Source of the DNA: Paludisphaera borealis
GTDB taxonomy: Bacteria; Planctomycetota; Planctomycetia; Isosphaerales; Isosphaeraceae
Reading direction: 5' to 3'
Length of the DNA: 64,000 bases
NCBI RefSeq assembly: GCF_001956985.1
Contig: NZ_CP019082.1
Span: 5,270,001 to 5,334,000, forward strand
Shown: positions 45,110-59,855 of the stretch, piece by piece
How positions within the stretch are numbered: the stretch's first letter is position 1
How the letters are laid out: the number at the start of each line of letters is the position of its first letter
The notes under the pieces: model-generated
Databases searched by the model: none
Told to the model about the DNA's origin: nothing
The model's input: the letters and a program-made list of their open reading frames with translations, nothing else
Program-made: the position numbers and the translations under genes

Positions 45110-45319
45110 GGGAACAAAGAACCAAGAACGAGGCTATTCTACCACGTCTCGGCCCCCCTCGCCGAACACACCGGACGCCGCTCCGGGCAAGCGAGGATTT
45201 TTGACGTTTTTTTATCGTTCGGCTCTCACCGCCTTGGTACTTTCATGTATCGATTGCTGACGAGCGTGGTTGGCTCGCCGGAGACATGAGAACAACATCG
45301 AGCGGTGAGGAGCACGGCC

Positions 45320-47383
45320 ATGCGACGTCGAACGTCCCTGCATCGTGGTGCCGGAAGACTGACCCGAGTTCGATCCACCTCCTGCCAGACGACTCTCCTC
45401 GCGGCCGCGCTGGTCGCAACGCTCGCCGCTATCGGCGGTTCGCCGGCCTGCCTGGCCGGACCAGCGCCCGACGTCGCCTTGTGGGTCGGCGAACAGGTGA
45501 TCGTTCGGCCCGGCGCCGTCCTGCTGGTTGACGGCAAGCCCATCGACGATGAAGTCCCCGCCAAGAATCCGGCTCGCGGAAAGGCCGCGTGTGGGTTTCG
45601 GATCTACAAAGTCGAGAAGGTCGACGGATCGTCTTTCTTGCTGACGGCTGAGGACTCGGGCGCGAAACAGTCGGTCGAGATCGGCGACGTCGTCCGGCTC
45701 GCACGGATGATCGAGGACATCACCGACCTGATCGACGCCAGCCCGGGGGACGCAGAGAATTACCTGTGGCGAGGGTTCGTCCAACTCAAGCGAGCCGAAC
45801 TTGAGAAGGCGATCGCCGACTTCGACGAGGCGATCCGTCTCGATCCCGGAAATGCCGTTCCCTATCTCGGCCGCGGCAATGCCTGGGCTGAGAAGAACGA
45901 ATACGACAAGGCGATCGCCGATTACGGCGAGGCGATCCGCATCGATCCGGGTTGCGCAGCCGCCTATGCCAACCAGGGCGACGCCTGGTCGGATAAGCAC
46001 GAGTTCGAGAAGGCGGTCGGCGACTACACCGAGGCCATCCGCCTTGATCCCGAGCGAGCGAAAAACTACACGCTCCGCGGCGACGCCTGGGCTTCGATGG
46101 GTGAGTGGGACAAGGCGATTGCGGATTGCAGCGAGGCGATCCGCCTCGATCCCGCGGACCCGGACAATTACAGCGCCCGAGGCGACGCCCGGGCTGACAA
46201 GCAGGACTTCGAGTCGGCGATCGTCGACTATAACGAGGCGATCCGCCTCGATCCCACAAACGCCGGTCTCCATAGATCACGCGGCAGCGCCTGGTCCGAA
46301 TTGAAGGATTTTGACAAGGCGATCACCGACTACGGCGAGGCGATCCGGCTCAATCCATTGGCGGCGGTCTTCTATAGTTTGCGCGCGATGGCCTGGTCTG
46401 CAAAGCGAGACGATGACAGAGCGATCGCCGACTACACCGACGCGATCCGCCTCGATCCGGCGGATGCGATCGCCTACAGCTTGCGCGGCCTGGCCTGGGA
46501 ATCGAAGAAAGAGTACGACAAGGCGATCGCCGATTTCAGCGAAGCGATTCGCCTCGATCCCGCGGACGTCGGCAACTACAGTTCTCGCGGCAGGGTCTGG
46601 TCCAGAAAGAAAGAGTCCGACAAGGCGATCGCCGACTACACCGATGCGATTCGACTTGATCCTGCGGTCGCCGAAAACTACAGGTCCCGCGGCATGGATT
46701 GGTCCGAGAAGGGCGACCTCGACAGAGCGATCGCCGATTTCAGCGAAGCGATTCGCCTCGATCCCGCGGACGCCTACGCCTACCACTTTCGCGGCAGCAC
46801 CTGGTCCAGCAAGAAGGAGTACGACAAGGCGATCGCCGACTACACCGAGGCGATCCGACTCGCTCCGAAGGACGGATTCAACTTCAATGCACGCGGCTGG
46901 ACTTGGTCTCGAAAAAAGGAGTACGACAAGGCGATCGCCGACTTCACCGACGCGATCCGCCTCGATCCGACGGATGGATTCAACTTCGATGCGCGCGGCA
47001 GGGCTTGGGCCGATAAGAAGGAGTACGACGAGGCGATCGCCGACTACACCGAGGCGATCCGACTCGATCCCGAGCATTCGCCCGCTTACAACGGCCGCGC
47101 CTGGATCTGGGCGACCGCGCTCGACGACAAGGCACGCGACGGCAAACGTGCTGTCGAATCGGCGATGCGCGCCTGTGAGATCAACGAATGGAACCGGCCC
47201 GACGACCTGGAAGCGCTCGCCGCCGGTTACGCCGAGACGGGCGACTTCGCCTCGGCGGTGAAGTGGGAAGAGAAGGCGATCGAGCTCCTGGGCGAAGACC
47301 GCGAGGCCAGGAAGCCCGAGTTTCGCAATCGCCTGGACCTGTACCGCGACAAGAAGCCCTATCGCCAGAAGCCGTCGCCGTGA
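45320..47383 (+). CDS. Exported 13-repeat TPR protein
   Basis: A 687-aa protein: signal-type segment (TTLLAAALVATLAAIGGSPACLA), an ~85-residue N-terminal domain (LWVGEQVIVRPGAVLLVDGK), then thirteen 34-residue tetratricopeptide repeats of consensus YDKAIADYTEAIRLDP and two degenerate ones. At DNA level this is a 102-bp tandem array with strong similarity between units, which suggests recent expansion and recombination. ATG 45320 has GAGGAG upstream; the GTG at 45305 overlaps that site and is rejected. It is probably a periplasmic protein-interaction scaffold. Confidence 0.9.
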   Translation: MRRRTSLHRGAGRLTRVRSTSCQTTLLAAALVATLAAIGGSPACLAGPAPDVALWVGEQVIVRPGAVLLVDGKPIDDEVPAKNPARGKAACGFRIYKVEKVDGSSFLLTAEDSGAKQSVEIGDVVRLARMIEDITDLIDASPGDAENYLWRGFVQLKRAELEKAIADFDEAIRLDPGNAVPYLGRGNAWAEKNEYDKAIADYGEAIRIDPGCAAAYANQGDAWSDKHEFEKAVGDYTEAIRLDPERAKNYTLRGDAWASMGEWDKAIADCSEAIRLDPADPDNYSARGDARADKQDFESAIVDYNEAIRLDPTNAGLHRSRGSAWSELKDFDKAITDYGEAIRLNPLAAVFYSLRAMAWSAKRDDDRAIADYTDAIRLDPADAIAYSLRGLAWESKKEYDKAIADFSEAIRLDPADVGNYSSRGRVWSRKKESDKAIADYTDAIRLDPAVAENYRSRGMDWSEKGDLDRAIADFSEAIRLDPADAYAYHFRGSTWSSKKEYDKAIADYTEAIRLAPKDGFNFNARGWTWSRKKEYDKAIADFTDAIRLDPTDGFNFDARGRAWADKKEYDEAIADYTEAIRLDPEHSPAYNGRAWIWATALDDKARDGKRAVESAMRACEINEWNRPDDLEALAAGYAETGDFASAVKWEEKAIELLGEDREARKPEFRNRLDLYRDKKPYRQKPSP

Positions 47384-49900: not shown

Positions 49901-50407
49901 GGCGATCAATCCTTCTGATCGGAGCTACGGCGAGCGAGGGCCGTATTCGGGCGGAGAAACCGGTGGACGTCGGGGTCGCAAGCAGTCAGTGGGGCAGCGC
50001 ATCCGACAGCAACGTCGGACACGACTACGGCAATTGTTTAACAACGTACCAACAGCGGCAAGAAATTTCAAGGAAAGTGCAACAATTTTCTCCGATCGTA
50101 GCGACTCGGCAAGACGGGTGGGCTTGCGTTGATCGGCGGAAGCGCTAAAATGAGGTGTTGGCTGCGGCTTGAGGCACGCTTGCCATGCGCCGACGCCTGT
50201 CGAAGAAGCCGACCCTGGGCCGTTCGCCCAAAAGGTCGGGCCGTCCGAATTCTCCAGAACCGTGTGATAGACTAAAGTCGAGAGTCGGCTGGCGAGCCTG
50301 CGCGAGGGCTCAAGCTCCGCGGGTCGAGGAGATGCGCGGTTGGTTTGGACGAGGAGGTCGGCCCCAAAGGGATGGGGCTGGCGGCGTTGTCAAGGAGGAT
50401 GGACGTG
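49901..50407. other. Divergent intergenic region
   Basis: A 507-nt spacer between divergent genes, AT-richer around 50030-50100. TTGTTTAACAA (50034-50044) is an 11-nt palindrome that might be an operator. No supportable gene was found; the short frames overlapping it lack typical codon use. Confidence 0.4.
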
Positions 50408-50890
50408 ATGGTCGTTCGCAATTGGAGCGGCGCGGCGCGGTTCGGCTTGCCCGGCTTGATCTTGGGAGTCGCCGTCTCCTGGGTCGGCGGGGCGCGAGGT
50501 CCGGAAGCGGCGGCCCAGACTGGGGCGGGGGGAGACTCATCGATACCAGCGATCCAGCCGCAGCGACCTCACGATCCGACCCGCGCGCCGCAACCGCAAG
50601 GGCAGGCGCGTCCGCTGGCTTCGGGCGAAGCCGGCGGCACGATGGCGTTCGTGACCTCGCCGGGAGGGACCGCGCAGTGGCTGTACCTGATCGACACCAA
50701 GACGCGGGCGTTCGCCGTCTACCGGGTCGATCCCACCAACACCAAGGGCGTGGTCAAGCTCGAAGCCGCTCGGCAGTATCAGTACGACCTGAAGCTGGAG
50801 CACTATAACAATCAACCGCCGGAGCCCAGCGCCATCGAAGCGACGGTGAAGGCCCTTTCGCAGACCGGACGATCATCGGGGGACCGCTAG
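50408..50890 (+). CDS. Small exported/anchored hypothetical protein
   Basis: A 160-aa protein with an N-terminal hydrophobic segment (FGLPGLILGVAVSWVGGA), a Pro/Gln-rich linker and a compact C-terminal domain (GGTMAFVTSPGGTAQWLYLI; TRAFAVYRVDPTNTKGVVKL). The C-terminal domain recurs in planctomycete proteins but has no assigned role. ATG 50408 is 10 nt after AAGGAGG; ATG 50399 is too close to that site. Confidence 0.65.
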   Translation: MVVRNWSGAARFGLPGLILGVAVSWVGGARGPEAAAQTGAGGDSSIPAIQPQRPHDPTRAPQPQGQARPLASGEAGGTMAFVTSPGGTAQWLYLIDTKTRAFAVYRVDPTNTKGVVKLEAARQYQYDLKLEHYNNQPPEPSAIEATVKALSQTGRSSGDR

Positions 50891-50986: not shown

Positions 50987-52528
50987 ATGGCACAATTTTA
51001 CACGCTTGAAGAAGCCGCCCGCGTCTTGGGGATGAGTCCCGACGAGTTGACGGAGAAAGCTCAACAGCGCGACATCCGGGCGTTCCTCGACGGCGGGACC
51101 TGGCGGTTCCGGGTCGTCGACGTCGACGAGTTGGCCCGGCGCCGCGGTCTGGGGAGCGACGCCGAGCTGCGGCTCTCGGACCTCGAAGTTCCGGCCGTCT
51201 CCAGTGGCGCCGACCTGGAAGACCTCGACCTCTCCGAGTTCCAGCTCGGCGTGGCCAGGCCCGACCTCGGCGCCGAGACCATGCACTTCGCGATCCCCGG
51301 CGACAAGCCGACCGCCGAGTCCGGCTCGGACCACGACCTGATGTTCGACGACCTCTCGCTCCCCCCCAACCCGGTGACCGGCTCGAGCTCGGTGATCATC
51401 GGCATGCAGTCGTCCGGCAAGCGGCCGAGCGATTCCGACGTCCGGCTGGTCCCGGAACAGTTCAAGGGGGCCAGCGACTCCGACGTCCGGCTCGCCTCGC
51501 CCGACCCGGACCGCAGGCTCCTGAGCGACTCGGACGTGACCCTCATCAAGGACGACACTTCCGAGCACAACTTCCTCACCTCGGGCTCGGGCGACACCGC
51601 CGTGCGGCCCAGCCCGGTGGTCGGCTCGTCGGCGGAAGTCCCCGCCGGCAGCGCCGACGACAGCGACTTCGAACTCAATCCGTCGAGCGACCTGGTCGAC
51701 GTCCTCTCGCCCGAGTCGGGCAGCGACTTCGAGCTGAGCGCCCTTGACCAGAGCGACGAGTTCGAGGCCACCCCGATGCGTCCGAGCGACTCGGACGTCA
51801 CGGCCGCCGACCCCAACCTCTCGGGCATCAACCTGTCGCGGCCCAGCGACTCGGGGATCAACCTCCAGGGCGTCGGCAACTTCAACCTCGGCGGCGATTC
51901 CATCGAACTCGCCCCCCTGAGCGGCGACGAGGTCCCCACCTCGAAGTCCAAGCCCGCCCCCAAGGCGGCGCCGGGCAAGGCAAAGCCATCGCTGGCCGCC
52001 ACGCCTCCTCCGGTGATCGGCAGGGGCGAGAAGGACATCTTCGACGACACCGACTTCGAGGTCGACGCGGCGCTCGACGACGAGTCGGACGACAGGACCA
52101 TGCAGCTTCCGACCGGCGGCAGCGACTTCGACATCGAAGACAGCGACAGCGGCTCGGAGGTCTTCGCGATCGACGAGGAAGACGTCGATCAGAACGCCGC
52201 GACCGCGATGGCGCCCTCGGCCTTCGCCGATGACGACGATGATGAAGACGACGACGGCTTCGACGATGCCGTCTCCAGCGAGATGGCCACCTCGTGGTCT
52301 TCGGACGACTCGCCCAGCGGCGCCTCGTCGACTCCCGCCATGGTGATCTCCCGCGAGGCCGCCGTCGATTGGGACGGCCTTTCCGTCGGGCTCCTGGCCG
52401 CCGCCAGCCTGTTCATCTTCTTCGCGGCCTTCATCGCGCAAGACCTGGTCCGCAACCTTTACGACTTCAACGAGGGGGGCGTCGCCTCGGGCCTCGTCCG
52501 GTCGATCTCCGGCATGCTCTTCAGTTGA
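50987..52528 (+). CDS. Excisionase-type HTH protein with acidic repeat region and C-terminal TM anchor
   Basis: A 513-aa protein of unusual layout. Residues 1-52 are an excisionase/MerR-like winged HTH (YTLEEAARVLGMSPDELTEKA; RDIRAFLDGGTWRFRVVDVDEL). About 400 residues of acidic, Ser/Asp-rich, probably disordered sequence follow, with recurring SDSDVRL, SDSDVTL and SDSGINL motifs and a run of Asp (~415-425). One TM helix (~470-490, VGLLAAASLFIFFAAFIAQDL) and a short tail end it. It could tether DNA or a partner to the membrane; the HTH may instead be a protein-binding module. ATG 50987 begins the HTH. Function unknown. Confidence 0.8.
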   Translation: MAQFYTLEEAARVLGMSPDELTEKAQQRDIRAFLDGGTWRFRVVDVDELARRRGLGSDAELRLSDLEVPAVSSGADLEDLDLSEFQLGVARPDLGAETMHFAIPGDKPTAESGSDHDLMFDDLSLPPNPVTGSSSVIIGMQSSGKRPSDSDVRLVPEQFKGASDSDVRLASPDPDRRLLSDSDVTLIKDDTSEHNFLTSGSGDTAVRPSPVVGSSAEVPAGSADDSDFELNPSSDLVDVLSPESGSDFELSALDQSDEFEATPMRPSDSDVTAADPNLSGINLSRPSDSGINLQGVGNFNLGGDSIELAPLSGDEVPTSKSKPAPKAAPGKAKPSLAATPPPVIGRGEKDIFDDTDFEVDAALDDESDDRTMQLPTGGSDFDIEDSDSGSEVFAIDEEDVDQNAATAMAPSAFADDDDDEDDDGFDDAVSSEMATSWSSDDSPSGASSTPAMVISREAAVDWDGLSVGLLAAASLFIFFAAFIAQDLVRNLYDFNEGGVASGLVRSISGMLFS

Positions 52529-52695: not shown

Positions 52696-53235
52696 ATGAT
52701 CCGTGCGCTCCGCCTCGTCGCAACGCCGATCCTCGCACTCGTTCTGGCCTCGGCGCTGCCCGGCTGCCAGTTCGGGGCCCGTCGCCAGCTTGACGAGTGC
52801 CGTCGCCTCAGCCAGACCCTGCGCTCCCAGAACGACCAGCTCAAGGACCAGATGCTGGCCTACCGCAACCAGAACCAGGATTTCTCCGAGCGCGCCGTGG
52901 ACGACGCCCGCCGACTCTCTCAGCAGGACGAGGCCATCGAGCGGCTGGAACGCAGCGTGCAAGCCTACCAGGGCGAGCGCGACGAGCTTCAAGCCGCCTT
53001 CAGCGAGCTTCGCGACAGTCTCCCCGCCACCATCCGCGCCGCCTCGTCGCCGTCCGGTACTCGCGTCCAGGCCGCCCGCGATCCCGACGACGCACCCAAG
53101 CCGCGCGAGTTCAGGGTTCCGTCGCGAGCCCGCGCCGAGACCGATGACGACGACGAGTCGGAGCGGCGGACGGGCTGGGCGCCGGCAGTCGACGAGCCCG
53201 CGTCCGACCCGGGCCCGACGCACGCCGCCCCTTGA
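52696..53235 (+). CDS. Coiled-coil lipoprotein
   Basis: A 179-aa exported protein: signal with lipobox (LALVLASALPGCQF), then a coiled coil (~30-110, CRRLSQTLRSQNDQLKDQML; QDEAIERLERSVQAYQGE) and an acidic/Pro-rich tail. Similar short coiled-coil lipoproteins occur beside FHA or HTH proteins in planctomycetes, but no function is assigned. It may be cotranscribed with nothing, given the hairpin upstream. ATG 52696. Confidence 0.75.
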   Translation: MIRALRLVATPILALVLASALPGCQFGARRQLDECRRLSQTLRSQNDQLKDQMLAYRNQNQDFSERAVDDARRLSQQDEAIERLERSVQAYQGERDELQAAFSELRDSLPATIRAASSPSGTRVQAARDPDDAPKPREFRVPSRARAETDDDDESERRTGWAPAVDEPASDPGPTHAAP

Positions 53236-54850: not shown

Positions 54851-54890
54851 AAGCCCCTGATTAGAGATGATCGCATCGGTGAATGTTTTC

Positions 54891-54910
54891 CCTCTCCCGG
54901 CGGGAGAAGG
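54891..54910. repeat. GGGAGAAGG palindrome, copy 2
   Basis: CCTCTCCC (54891-54898) pairs with GGGAGAAGG (54902-54910) with one bulged A. Related to the copy at 18057-18079, and likewise between same-strand genes. Confidence 0.35.
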
Positions 54911-54987
54911 GATACTTGCGTCGGCTTGTCCTGACGCCGACTGCTAAACGCCCCATCACCCCTTCATCCTTCCGCCGTAGCCCCCTC

Positions 54988-56475
54988 ATGATACCGATTC
55001 CGCTCCTGGTCGCTCTCTTCCTGGCCTTCGCGGTGGATGGGCCGTCCGCGCCGCCGCCGGAGGGCGCCGACCTGATCGAGGCGGTTCTGTGGGTCGTCGC
55101 GGGGGGGCTGCTGATCTCCGGCCTGTCGTTCGCGGTCGGGCTCGGGACCGCGTGGCGGGTGAGGCGACGAGGCTACGCGACCTCGCGCATGCGGCGCGAT
55201 CTCGTGATCGGCTCGCGGCTCCTGAACGTCGGGACGATGGCGGTCTACGGCTGGATGATCTTCGATCGCGGTTGGCCGGGCGTCGTGCTCGACGCGTGGG
55301 GATGGCGCGGGTCGATCCTCGTCGACGATCTGCTGATCGTCGCGCCGTTCCTGCTGATGCAGCTTTGCTACTGGTGGGGGACGTACTACGGCGAGCGGGC
55401 GATTCAGGGCCTGTCGATCGCTCGGAGCGGCCGAGCCACGGCCCGGCATCTGTACCTGAAAGAGCGGCAGTCGCTGGCGTTGATCCTGCCGATCGTCTCC
55501 CTATTCGTGATCCGCAACGACGTGATCGGCCGGCTCTGGCCCCGTTGGGAAACGAATTCCTGGTCCGAGCCGGTGGATCTGGCGGTGCTGGGCGTGGGGA
55601 TTCTGCTGATCTCGCCGCTATTCGTCCGCCTGGCCTGGCCGACCCGGTCGCTGCCCGACGGCCCGCTCCGGCGCAGGCTTGAGACGATCGCCCGGCGGTC
55701 GGGGTTTCGATTCACCGACATCCTGGTCTGGGACACCGACCATTTGATGGTGAACGCTTGCGTGACCGGCGTCTTGCCCCAGTTTCGCTACGTCTTGCTT
55801 TCCGACGCCCTGATCGACGCCCTCAGCCCGCTGGAGATCGCCGCGGTCTTCGGGCACGAGGCGGGGCACGTCGCGCATCGCCACTTGCCGTTCTTTCTCT
55901 TCTTTTTCGTCGGTTGCCTGACGTTCTTGACGCTGACGTCTCCCGTGCTCAACGGTCTGGAATCGTGGATCGCGACGGTCCCCGGGCTCGACCTGGCCTC
56001 GCTGCCGACGCTGCGCGGGGTGGTCGAGGGGGTGCTGGCGTTGGCCTGCGTCGGGGTCGTCTTCTGGCTGGTATTCGGCGAGATCTCTCGACGGTTTGAG
56101 CGTCAGGCCGACGTCTTCGGCTGCAAGGCCGTCTCGTGCGGACTGACCGACTGCCCGCCGCATTTCGATTTTGAAGACGACGAGCCCGAAGCGCCCGGTC
56201 CGCCGATCCAAGCTCTGTGCCCCGCCGGCATCCAGATCTTTTCCGAGGCGCTGGCGTCGGTCGCCCATCAGAACGGCATCGACGCGACGGCTCGGTCGTG
56301 GCGGCACGGCAGCATCGCCAGCCGGATCGCCTTCCTCCAGAAGCTGATCGACGCCCCCGAACGCGAGGTCCTGTTCCAGAACCGCATCCGCCGGTTCCGA
56401 TTCGGCCTCTCCGCCCTGCTCGTCGCCTCTCTCGCGGCCGCCGGCGCGGCCCACTGGCTCGGCCTGCTGGGCTGA
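54988..56475 (+). CDS. M48 family membrane metallopeptidase
   Basis: A 495-aa integral membrane zinc protease of the HtpX/Ste24 type. Several TM segments flank the active site: HEAGH in VFGHEAGHVAHRH supplies the two His ligands and Glu, and the downstream ligand lies in FERQADVFGCKAV. The N-terminal half has about five TM helices; a large TM pair follows the HExxH. A cysteine-bearing loop (CGLTDCPPHFDFEDDE) is inserted after the ERQAD motif. ATG 54988 begins the first TM segment. It probably degrades misfolded membrane proteins. Confidence 0.93.
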   Translation: MIPIPLLVALFLAFAVDGPSAPPPEGADLIEAVLWVVAGGLLISGLSFAVGLGTAWRVRRRGYATSRMRRDLVIGSRLLNVGTMAVYGWMIFDRGWPGVVLDAWGWRGSILVDDLLIVAPFLLMQLCYWWGTYYGERAIQGLSIARSGRATARHLYLKERQSLALILPIVSLFVIRNDVIGRLWPRWETNSWSEPVDLAVLGVGILLISPLFVRLAWPTRSLPDGPLRRRLETIARRSGFRFTDILVWDTDHLMVNACVTGVLPQFRYVLLSDALIDALSPLEIAAVFGHEAGHVAHRHLPFFLFFFVGCLTFLTLTSPVLNGLESWIATVPGLDLASLPTLRGVVEGVLALACVGVVFWLVFGEISRRFERQADVFGCKAVSCGLTDCPPHFDFEDDEPEAPGPPIQALCPAGIQIFSEALASVAHQNGIDATARSWRHGSIASRIAFLQKLIDAPEREVLFQNRIRRFRFGLSALLVASLAAAGAAHWLGLLG

Positions 56476-56643
56476 TAAGGAAATCGGCCCGGGGGCGCCG
56501 GGTGTTCGACTCCGAAGCCAGATAGTCCGTTTGAGCGATCTCGCGACTTCTGGTATAAGGTCTCGACCCGACCCGAGGATCGACGACGCGGGACGGCCCC
56601 TACTGAACACTTGAAGCCTACCCGAACGACAAGGAGGTCGTCC

Positions 56644-58335
56644 ATGGTCCGGTGGCCAATCCGCATCAAGCTCATGGTCGGCCTGGGCGTGGTCGTCGGC
56701 ATGATGCTGATCCTGATGGGCGGCTCGATCTTCGGCCTCCACTCGTTCCACGTCAGCAACCTGACGCTGACCGACCAGCTTCGCGAGCTGGGGGCTTCGA
56801 AGGACTTGATCGAGTGCATTCTCCGGCTCCATCCCCCGGACGACAGCGCCGAGGATGCCGACTCGCTGCTCGTCACGGCGCGGCGGGCGCAGGCCGGGCT
56901 CCTGGAGTACTTCCACGAGCTGAAGCAAAACACGATGCGGGGCAACCGGGCCAACAGCGGTTTCGACGAACTGGGGCTCGCCTTTCGGCTCGACGACGAC
57001 CTTACGGCGATCATCAACGAGCTGAGTCGCTCCGATCCCCCCGAGGCCCCAATCCTGCCGGGTACGACGTACTTCGTCACCCAGCATCCCGAACTGTTGC
57101 GACAGCTCGATCCGGCGACGGATCTCAAGTCGTCCAACCTCGCCCAGAATCCCGAAACCCAGGCAAAGCTGGAACCGGCGACGGACGTCAAGTCGAGGAT
57201 CGATCGCCTGAAGTACACGGTGATGCGGCTCCCCAAGGAGCTGCACGACGACTTCTACGACGTGCTCGTGATGTCGAAGACGCAGTATCAGATCAGTCGA
57301 GTGATCGTCTGGACTTCGGCCCTGGCGGTCTTGCCGATGCTTTGCGGCCTGACGGCGCTGTTTCACCGCTGGGTGCTCTACCCGGTGCGGCTGCTCCAGC
57401 GCGGGGTGCGCCGCGTGGCGCGGGGCTCGTTCGATTACAAGATCGACCTCCACTCGGGCGATGAGATGCAAGACCTGGCCGGGGCCTTCAACGAGATGAC
57501 GGCCCGGATCAGCATGACCTACGCCGACCTCGAACAGCAGGTCCAGGAGCGGAGCCGGCAACTGGTCCGCTCCGAGCGGCTGGCGGGAGTCGGCTTCCTG
57601 GCGGCGGGCGTGGCCCACGAGATCAACAACCCGCTGGCCTCGATCGCCTTCTGCTCCGAGGCCCTCGAAAGCCGCCTCGAAGCGCTGACGCAAGGGTCCG
57701 ACGACCCCGATCACCGCGCTGTATCGAAATATCTGAAGATGATCCAGGAAGAAGCGTTCCGGTGTAAGAACATCACCGAGAAGCTGCTCGACTTCGCCCG
57801 CTGCAACGACATCAAGCGCGAGCGCACCGATTTGCCGAGCCTGGTCCAGGGGGTCGTCGACATGATCCGCCACATCGGCAAATACCGGGGCAAGACGATC
57901 GTGTTCCAGCCCAAGGAAGCGATCGTGGCCCATGTGGACGGCCAGGAGATCAAGCAGGTGATCCTGAACCTGGTGGTCAACGCGCTCGAATCGATGGACG
58001 CCGGAGGGGTGCTGCGGATCGACGCTCGCTACGATCACGGGATGGCCGAGGTGATCTTCAACGACAACGGCTGCGGCATCGCGGCCGACGTGCTGGAGAA
58101 CATCTTCGAGCCGTTCTTCACGCGCCGCCGCGACGGCAAGGGGACGGGCTTGGGCCTGTCGATCACGCACCGGATCGTCAACCAGCATCACGGCGAGATC
58201 ACCGCGACGAGCCCGGGCGAGGGGAGGGGCTCGACGTTCCGGGTCCGCCTGCCGATCCACCCGTCCGAGATCGGCGACGGTCCAGGCGGTCGCGAGCCCG
58301 CCGTCGCGGGAGCGTCGCGCGGGCACGCCGCATAA
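56644..58335 (+). CDS. Membrane-bound sensor histidine kinase (NtrB/ZraS-like)
   Basis: A 563-aa sensor: TM1 (~11-32, KLMVGLGVVVGMMLILMGG), an extracytoplasmic domain of ~190 residues with no known fold, TM2 (~223-240), HAMP (FHRWVLYPVRLLQRGVRR), HisKA with GVAHEINNPLASIAF as H-box, and HATPase_c (LNLVVNALES, FNDNGCGIA, GKGTGLGLSI). The extracytoplasmic domain contains a near-duplicate motif (LDPATDLKS / LEPATDVKS). ATG 56644 follows AAGGAGG. It is followed 113 nt later by its probable partner regulator. Confidence 0.95.
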   Translation: MVRWPIRIKLMVGLGVVVGMMLILMGGSIFGLHSFHVSNLTLTDQLRELGASKDLIECILRLHPPDDSAEDADSLLVTARRAQAGLLEYFHELKQNTMRGNRANSGFDELGLAFRLDDDLTAIINELSRSDPPEAPILPGTTYFVTQHPELLRQLDPATDLKSSNLAQNPETQAKLEPATDVKSRIDRLKYTVMRLPKELHDDFYDVLVMSKTQYQISRVIVWTSALAVLPMLCGLTALFHRWVLYPVRLLQRGVRRVARGSFDYKIDLHSGDEMQDLAGAFNEMTARISMTYADLEQQVQERSRQLVRSERLAGVGFLAAGVAHEINNPLASIAFCSEALESRLEALTQGSDDPDHRAVSKYLKMIQEEAFRCKNITEKLLDFARCNDIKRERTDLPSLVQGVVDMIRHIGKYRGKTIVFQPKEAIVAHVDGQEIKQVILNLVVNALESMDAGGVLRIDARYDHGMAEVIFNDNGCGIAADVLENIFEPFFTRRRDGKGTGLGLSITHRIVNQHHGEITATSPGEGRGSTFRVRLPIHPSEIGDGPGGREPAVAGASRGHAA

Positions 58336-58448
58336 CCGCTGCGCATACGAATACACATGATGACGAACCGCGGCGAAACGCCGACGAGGCCCGCGGGTCG
58401 TCTCGGTAGCCGGACCCACGGATGGCCAGGAAGGTTCAGGAGGAAGCT

Positions 58449-59855
<1,407 letters not shown>

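Follow-up and report, generated by a model that had tools for sequence, protein, structure and literature searches.

A membrane-tethered winged-helix protein conserved across planctomycetes and its frequent pairing with an OmpA-family gene

The stretch of Paludisphaera borealis DNA analysed here (64,000 nucleotides, positions 5,270,001 to 5,334,000 of contig NZ_CP019082.1; referred to as the window) carries a gene whose product joins a small helix-turn-helix (HTH) domain to a long acidic region and a membrane segment, which raises the question of what such a protein might do at the membrane. From its N-terminus to its C-terminus the protein comprises three parts, namely an HTH head, some 395 acidic disordered residues (referred to as the tether) and a single transmembrane (TM) helix close to the C-terminus:

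50987-52528, forward strand: HTH-protein gene, a 513-aa ORF with its ATG at 50987 and its stop at 52528
50996-51145, forward strand: MerR/BldC-type winged HTH head, residues 4-53 (Pfam HTH_17, AlphaFold2, fold matches)
51167-52351, forward strand: acidic, predicted-disordered tether, residues 61-455 (composition, pLDDT mostly below 50)
52376-52474, forward strand: C-terminal TM helix, helix 464-496 in the model (hydropathy, AlphaFold2, alignment)

A sequence-only reading had proposed this combination of HTH head, acidic disordered tether and one C-terminal TM helix, and Pfam, composition, hydropathy and AlphaFold2 modelling all bear it out. The AlphaFold2 model of the full protein is confident only in the head and in the C-terminal helices (464-496 and 502-512), with pLDDT mostly below 50 across residues 60-457, and it carries no information on docking of the tether repeats described below. 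According to hydropathy, the TM region is the sole hydrophobic segment, starting from residue 465, and in the alignment a conserved DLVRNLY sequence and then a short tail come after it. Only ca. 30 residues lie C-terminal to the TM helix in the window's protein (up to 140 in that of locus L200). Because the TM segment is the only one and the N-terminus has no hydrophobic segment, the head would be expected in the cytoplasm; the charges flanking the TM helix, read from the sequence, do not settle the topology.

The possibility that this reading frame is an artefact of GC-rich overlapping frames (an ORF of 522 aa lies on the opposite strand) was rejected, since the frame is conserved and its pN/pS ratios are well below 1. 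Specifically, comparison with four relatives yielded ratios of 0.11-0.26 for the head, 0.37-0.42 for the tether and 0.35-0.65 for the TM helix and tail, from which it follows that the frame is coding and constrained. The HTH gene is under purifying selection, which is strongest in the head.

When the head alone was used as a query, it was found in 43 of the 45 Isosphaerales genomes and as a single copy in 42 of them; the one genome with a different copy number (G303) shows 10% contamination, and both genomes without a match are drafts, of 780 and 410 contigs. A profile of 33 sequences found the head, counted on its own whatever the layout of the protein and with weaker matches (about 1e-9 to 1e-14) included, in 214 of 294 genomes of the phylum and in 161 of 210 genera (E≤1e-9). 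One match was present in 197 of these 214 genomes, and more in the other 17 (as many as six in G107). Of 80 further loci, 76 (38/40 and 38/40) encode the head, a tether of net negative charge and, after it, one or more hydrophobic segments; homologues lacking the HTH or the TM segment, which by the sequence-only reading would have refuted it, were thus largely absent among these loci. The four misses concern two HTH_17 proteins without a TM segment (L143 and L151), which we take for members of other families, a contig end (L179) and a run of N (L192). Several lineages (e.g. L141, L145, L156) have two hydrophobic segments. Moreover, a strict scan of 84,980 species yielded at least 19 confirmed loci, all of them planctomycete among the matches listed. 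As judged by these sequence comparisons, the membrane-tethered HTH protein is conserved across planctomycetes and is not a local oddity. A literature search of open-licence papers returned no title or abstract describing it, and the words 'helix' and 'excisionase' are absent from the main text of an essentiality study of Planctopirus limnophila (PMC10632474).

The head belongs by fold and by Pfam family with the HTH_17/MerR-like winged HTH proteins BldC, Xis and RacA. Pfam HTH_17 (PF12728) matches residues 4-53 with an E-value of 1.2e-7 and 32.3 bits (gathering cut-off 27), and at E≤1 Pfam listed HTH_17 for the window's protein and did not list HTH_25. The AlphaFold2 head is a beta-alpha-alpha-beta-beta-alpha winged HTH with a block pLDDT of about 90, and its closest solved fold is that of BldC (Z 7.7, rmsd 2.2 over 53 residues), further matches being CarH, Xis, MerR proteins, CbpM (Z 6.6) and RacA (Z 6.3); these Z values, all below 8, indicate a common fold only. 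Foldseek with the head gave no match at E 0.001, and a sequence search of solved structures returned weak or repeat-protein matches only, which were uninformative.

In BldC, bases are read by Arg30 and Lys26, and the wing is docked by His46, Arg47 and Arg48 (PMC5859096). With the alignment register of the heads to these positions set by hand, the Lys26 position is acidic in all 27 distinct Isosphaerales heads, none of which has R or K at the Arg30 position, while the His46 position is S or T and the Arg47 position W throughout (27/27 each); an R is still found at the Arg48 position in 20 of the 27. The K26, R30, H46 and R47 contacts of BldC have thus been lost in Isosphaerales, in a head that, unlike BldC, is fused to an acidic tether and a TM helix. 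Among 67 heads from outside Isosphaerales, the Lys26 position is acidic in 50, and R or K occupies the Arg30 position in 45 and the Arg48 position in 55. The net charge of the head runs from –2 to +1 in Isosphaerales and from –7 to +3 (median –1) elsewhere. The window's head itself carries –1. With the same measure applied to 13 other matches in this genome, 11 of them HTH_17 domains above the cut-off, a charge of +4 to +7 was obtained for 8 of the 11, the remaining three being fragments or probably misread. Among the 13 matches, L124, L129, L131 and L135 (+1 to +2) are fragments or were probably read out of frame, and L134, which is below the cut-off, carries –3. Because acidic or uncharged residues occupy the base-reading positions and there is no net positive charge, DNA binding by the Isosphaerales head is doubtful. 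Outside Isosphaerales, the R or K retained at the Arg30 and Arg48 positions in most heads means that DNA binding may persist.

The tether (residues 61-455) contains 87 D/E versus 22 K/R, and all 136 distinct tethers are net acidic, although in some (e.g. L197) barely so. In the window's protein it holds the following motifs:

51428-51448, forward strand: SDSDVRL repeat 1, residue 148, aligned across Isosphaerales
51473-51493, forward strand: SDSDVRL repeat 2, residue 163, with no variation at S165 or D166 across 32 aligned homologues
51524-51544, forward strand: SDSDVTL repeat 3, residue 180, aligned across Isosphaerales
51785-51799, forward strand: SDSDV repeat 4, residue 267, aligned across Isosphaerales
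51845-51865, forward strand: SDSGINL motif, residue 287, with no variation at D288 or S289 across 32 aligned homologues

The four SDSDV copies (at residues 148, 163, 180 and 267, followed by RL, RL, TL and TA, respectively) make up a count that was reached by none of 20,000 composition-preserving shuffles, and they are accompanied by the related motifs SDFEL (226 and 246), SDSGI (287), TDFEV (355) and SDFDI (379). An SDSD[V/I]xxL-like DNA pattern occurs at 5 sites in the whole genome, 3 inside the HTH gene and 2 elsewhere, the latter as a DNA pattern only. Repeat positions align throughout Isosphaerales, where SDSDV, DSGxxL and [ST]DFE are present in 31 of 31 tethers. Outside this order, SDSDV was found in 17 and DSGxxL in 20 of 105 tethers (shuffled means 0.9 and 0.5), two of which (L026 and L028) are shortened by a misplaced start, and an [VIL]FD[DE] motif occurs in 21 of the 31 Isosphaerales tethers and in 34 of the 105 others (shuffled means 1.5 and 3.3). 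Since the motifs are universal and positionally aligned in Isosphaerales versus present in 17-20 of 105 tethers elsewhere, they are, on this comparative evidence, a real and selected feature at the level of the lineage. The SDSDV repeats singled out in the sequence-only reading are kept within Isosphaerales but do not define the family. In the Isosphaerales alignment, conservation amounts to 0.88 in the head versus 0.64-0.75 in the tether.

The HTH gene is flanked on the same strand by two genes that recur beside it in relatives:

50345-50890, forward strand: upstream small conserved protein (cluster c2) that has a hydrophobic segment at its N-terminus; the start codon is uncertain
52696-53235, forward strand: downstream partner lipoprotein, assigned by clustering, with a lipobox (LPGC) and a likely coiled coil seen by eye

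Pfam found no OmpA match in the window's partner lipoprotein, but this protein clusters with OmpA-domain lipoproteins encoded at the same place in relatives; the two OmpA matches in the window's genome, one of them below the cut-off, both lie away from the HTH gene. Within Isosphaerales, the coiled-coil lipoprotein cluster (c1) follows the HTH gene in 23 of the 33 loci drawn, some genomes being drawn twice, and among eight c1 members tested from Isosphaerales and beyond, OmpA was matched above the cut-off in five, below it in one and not at all in two. Across the phylum, an OmpA-family gene lies directly downstream of the HTH gene in 45 of 100 loci. More specifically, 21 of 62 loci (in 18 of 31 families) have such a gene next to the HTH gene, downstream and on its strand, and domain position places one there in 24 of 38 further loci that extend far enough; a stricter frame-distance rule gives 20 of 38, passing over four in which the OmpA frame either overlaps that of the HTH gene or is more distant from it. 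OmpA was confirmed by Pfam in all 10 downstream neighbours tested, and in several lineages the neighbour gene also has a lipobox. Because the 12 genomes checked hold only one to four OmpA genes each, chance adjacency of the two genes is very unlikely; in two of them (G045 and G066) the sole OmpA gene is the neighbour of the HTH gene. Upstream of the HTH gene, no OmpA match was found within 6 kb in the 62 loci, where the only other OmpA matches, both from f2, are located ca. 6.6 and 8.1 kb upstream in one locus each. In L051 and L052, an OmpA match lies divergently, 395 bases away.

The pairing is not universal, as no OmpA gene lies downstream in 41 of the 62 loci, including all 11 f2 loci and every f3, f4, f6, f26, f59, f61 and f66 locus, or in 14 of the 38 further ones. 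The followers then comprise a phosphatidylserine decarboxylase gene (L160, by Pfam), a TPR/peptidase gene (L136) and other genes. A phosphatidylserine decarboxylase-type gene, recognised by eye, likewise follows in L119, L121, L158 and L167, and several HTH proteins of this group have two hydrophobic segments. Two large genes resembling ResB and CcsA of cytochrome c biogenesis, also seen by eye, come after the HTH gene in L092, L095 and L096 (families f3 and f4). The upstream c2 protein, for which Pfam gave no family at E≤0.1, often precedes the HTH gene in Isosphaerales and is found beside it in L092 and L096 as well (families f4 and f3). Elsewhere in the window, positions 54883-59855 downstream of the HTH gene encode an M48 peptidase, a HAMP histidine kinase and a response regulator (the last by eye), a block that recurs in many Isosphaerales loci, and positions 45305-47383 encode a protein with many TPR repeats, the units of which look very similar by eye.

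The same surroundings bear on the label 'excisionase-type' that the protein had been given. An excisionase or mobile-element role is unlikely, given that 42 of 45 Isosphaerales genomes have a single copy, that the neighbours are conserved and that Pfam scans of eight of them returned no integrase. The label holds for the fold only, as the match to NCBIfam 'excise' (TIGR01764) reaches 23.8 bits and falls under its cut-off of 28.8, and as a name it is misleading for a gene that is nearly always single-copy in Isosphaerales and sits in a conserved neighbourhood.

If the head does bind DNA, the protein could be a membrane-tethered transcription regulator, its head sitting on promoters and its membrane part sensing the envelope, perhaps via the neighbouring lipoprotein. 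ToxR/CadC-type regulators have such a cytoplasmic DNA-binding head and TM segment, together with a sensory outer domain. Head and TM segment are present here too, HTH_17 scores above its Pfam cut-off, the fold matches are mostly DNA binders, and 45 of the 67 heads outside Isosphaerales keep R or K at the R30 position of BldC. However, the Isosphaerales heads are without equivalents of K26 and R30 and their wings without those of H46 and R47, the net charge of the head is –2 to +1 in Isosphaerales and has a median of –1 elsewhere, and the ca. 30 residues after the TM helix in the window's protein (against up to 140 in L200) leave no obvious sensor domain, so that we consider such a regulator rather unlikely. 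A low-specificity DNA-binding head might instead hold the condensed nucleoid at the membrane, by analogy with RacA, which acts with DivIVA in Bacillus to hold the chromosome there. RacA is indeed among the top fold matches of the head, and a membrane anchor with a long flexible tether would suit this role, but a neutral head next to so strongly acidic a tether would repel DNA, and the base-reading residues are lost in Isosphaerales; a chromosome anchor is accordingly an unlikely reading. The sequence-only proposal that the protein positions factors at the membrane thus stays plausible, and gains from the gene pair with the OmpA lipoprotein, yet its chromosomal version is less well supported, with acidic or uncharged base-reading positions and a head of no net positive charge in Isosphaerales.

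It is also conceivable, albeit quite improbable, that the activity lies in the tether repeats, with SDSDV, SDFEL and DSGINL docking or being phosphorylated to recruit several copies of a client while the head dimerises or localises the protein. The conserved motif positions in all 31 Isosphaerales tethers and the invariance of S165, D166, D288 and S289 in 32 sequences would fit such a role, whereas the scarcity of SDSDV outside Isosphaerales (17/105) and the higher conservation of the head than of the tether argue against it.

The reading that we tentatively favour, while rating it somewhat below an even chance, is that the HTH protein is a membrane-anchored scaffold through which a client in the cytoplasm would be connected to the envelope. 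The closest known protein in layout is RodZ, which has a cytoplasmic HTH (HTH_25), a linker, a single TM segment and a periplasmic part, is linked to cell-wall formation and interacts with MreB; the HTH family differs (HTH_17 here), and no membership is claimed. In many lineages the adjoining gene for a putatively wall-binding lipoprotein suggests that the protein is such a scaffold and not a gene regulator of the usual kind. The C-terminal helix would anchor the protein in the inner membrane with the head in the cytoplasm, and the acidic tether would extend the reach of the head and present several short motifs to the client. With its DNA-reading residues lost in Isosphaerales, the head itself would most likely bind protein, in the manner of CbpM, which is not known to have a long acidic tether or TM segment. 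CbpM shares the MerR-like fold but is without the DNA-contact residues, binds the J-domain of CbpA and dimerises via a parallel coiled coil (PMC4063869). At the other end, the short outer tail would probably partner the protein encoded by the adjacent gene, which in many lineages is an OmpA-domain lipoprotein expected to bind peptidoglycan, and together the two would connect the client in the cytoplasm with the cell wall or the outer membrane. The likeness to the Pal/OmpA lipoproteins of Tol-Pal resides in this neighbour, with its OmpA domain in many lineages and lipobox in several; TolA and TolR show no evident relation to the HTH protein. DNA binding that may persist outside Isosphaerales would count against the scaffold as a general reading, as do the loci with no OmpA gene downstream and the absence of an OmpA match from the window's own partner lipoprotein. 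A planctomycete-wide linker, in which the head binds a cytoplasmic organiser and the tail partners the main or sole OmpA lipoprotein in a RodZ- or Tol-Pal-like joining, is a bolder version that we regard as rather improbable.

Many conserved planctomycete genes are without a known role (PMC10632474), and planctomycetes divide without FtsZ (PMC12283558). Here, a widespread and mostly single-copy planctomycete gene has a layout and a neighbour that point to a link between cytoplasm and cell wall, and the HTH and lipoprotein genes offer a concrete, testable pair for envelope organisation in these bacteria. On the bolder reading of a planctomycete-wide linker, a MerR-fold head would have been turned into a protein-binding module in bacteria that divide without FtsZ.
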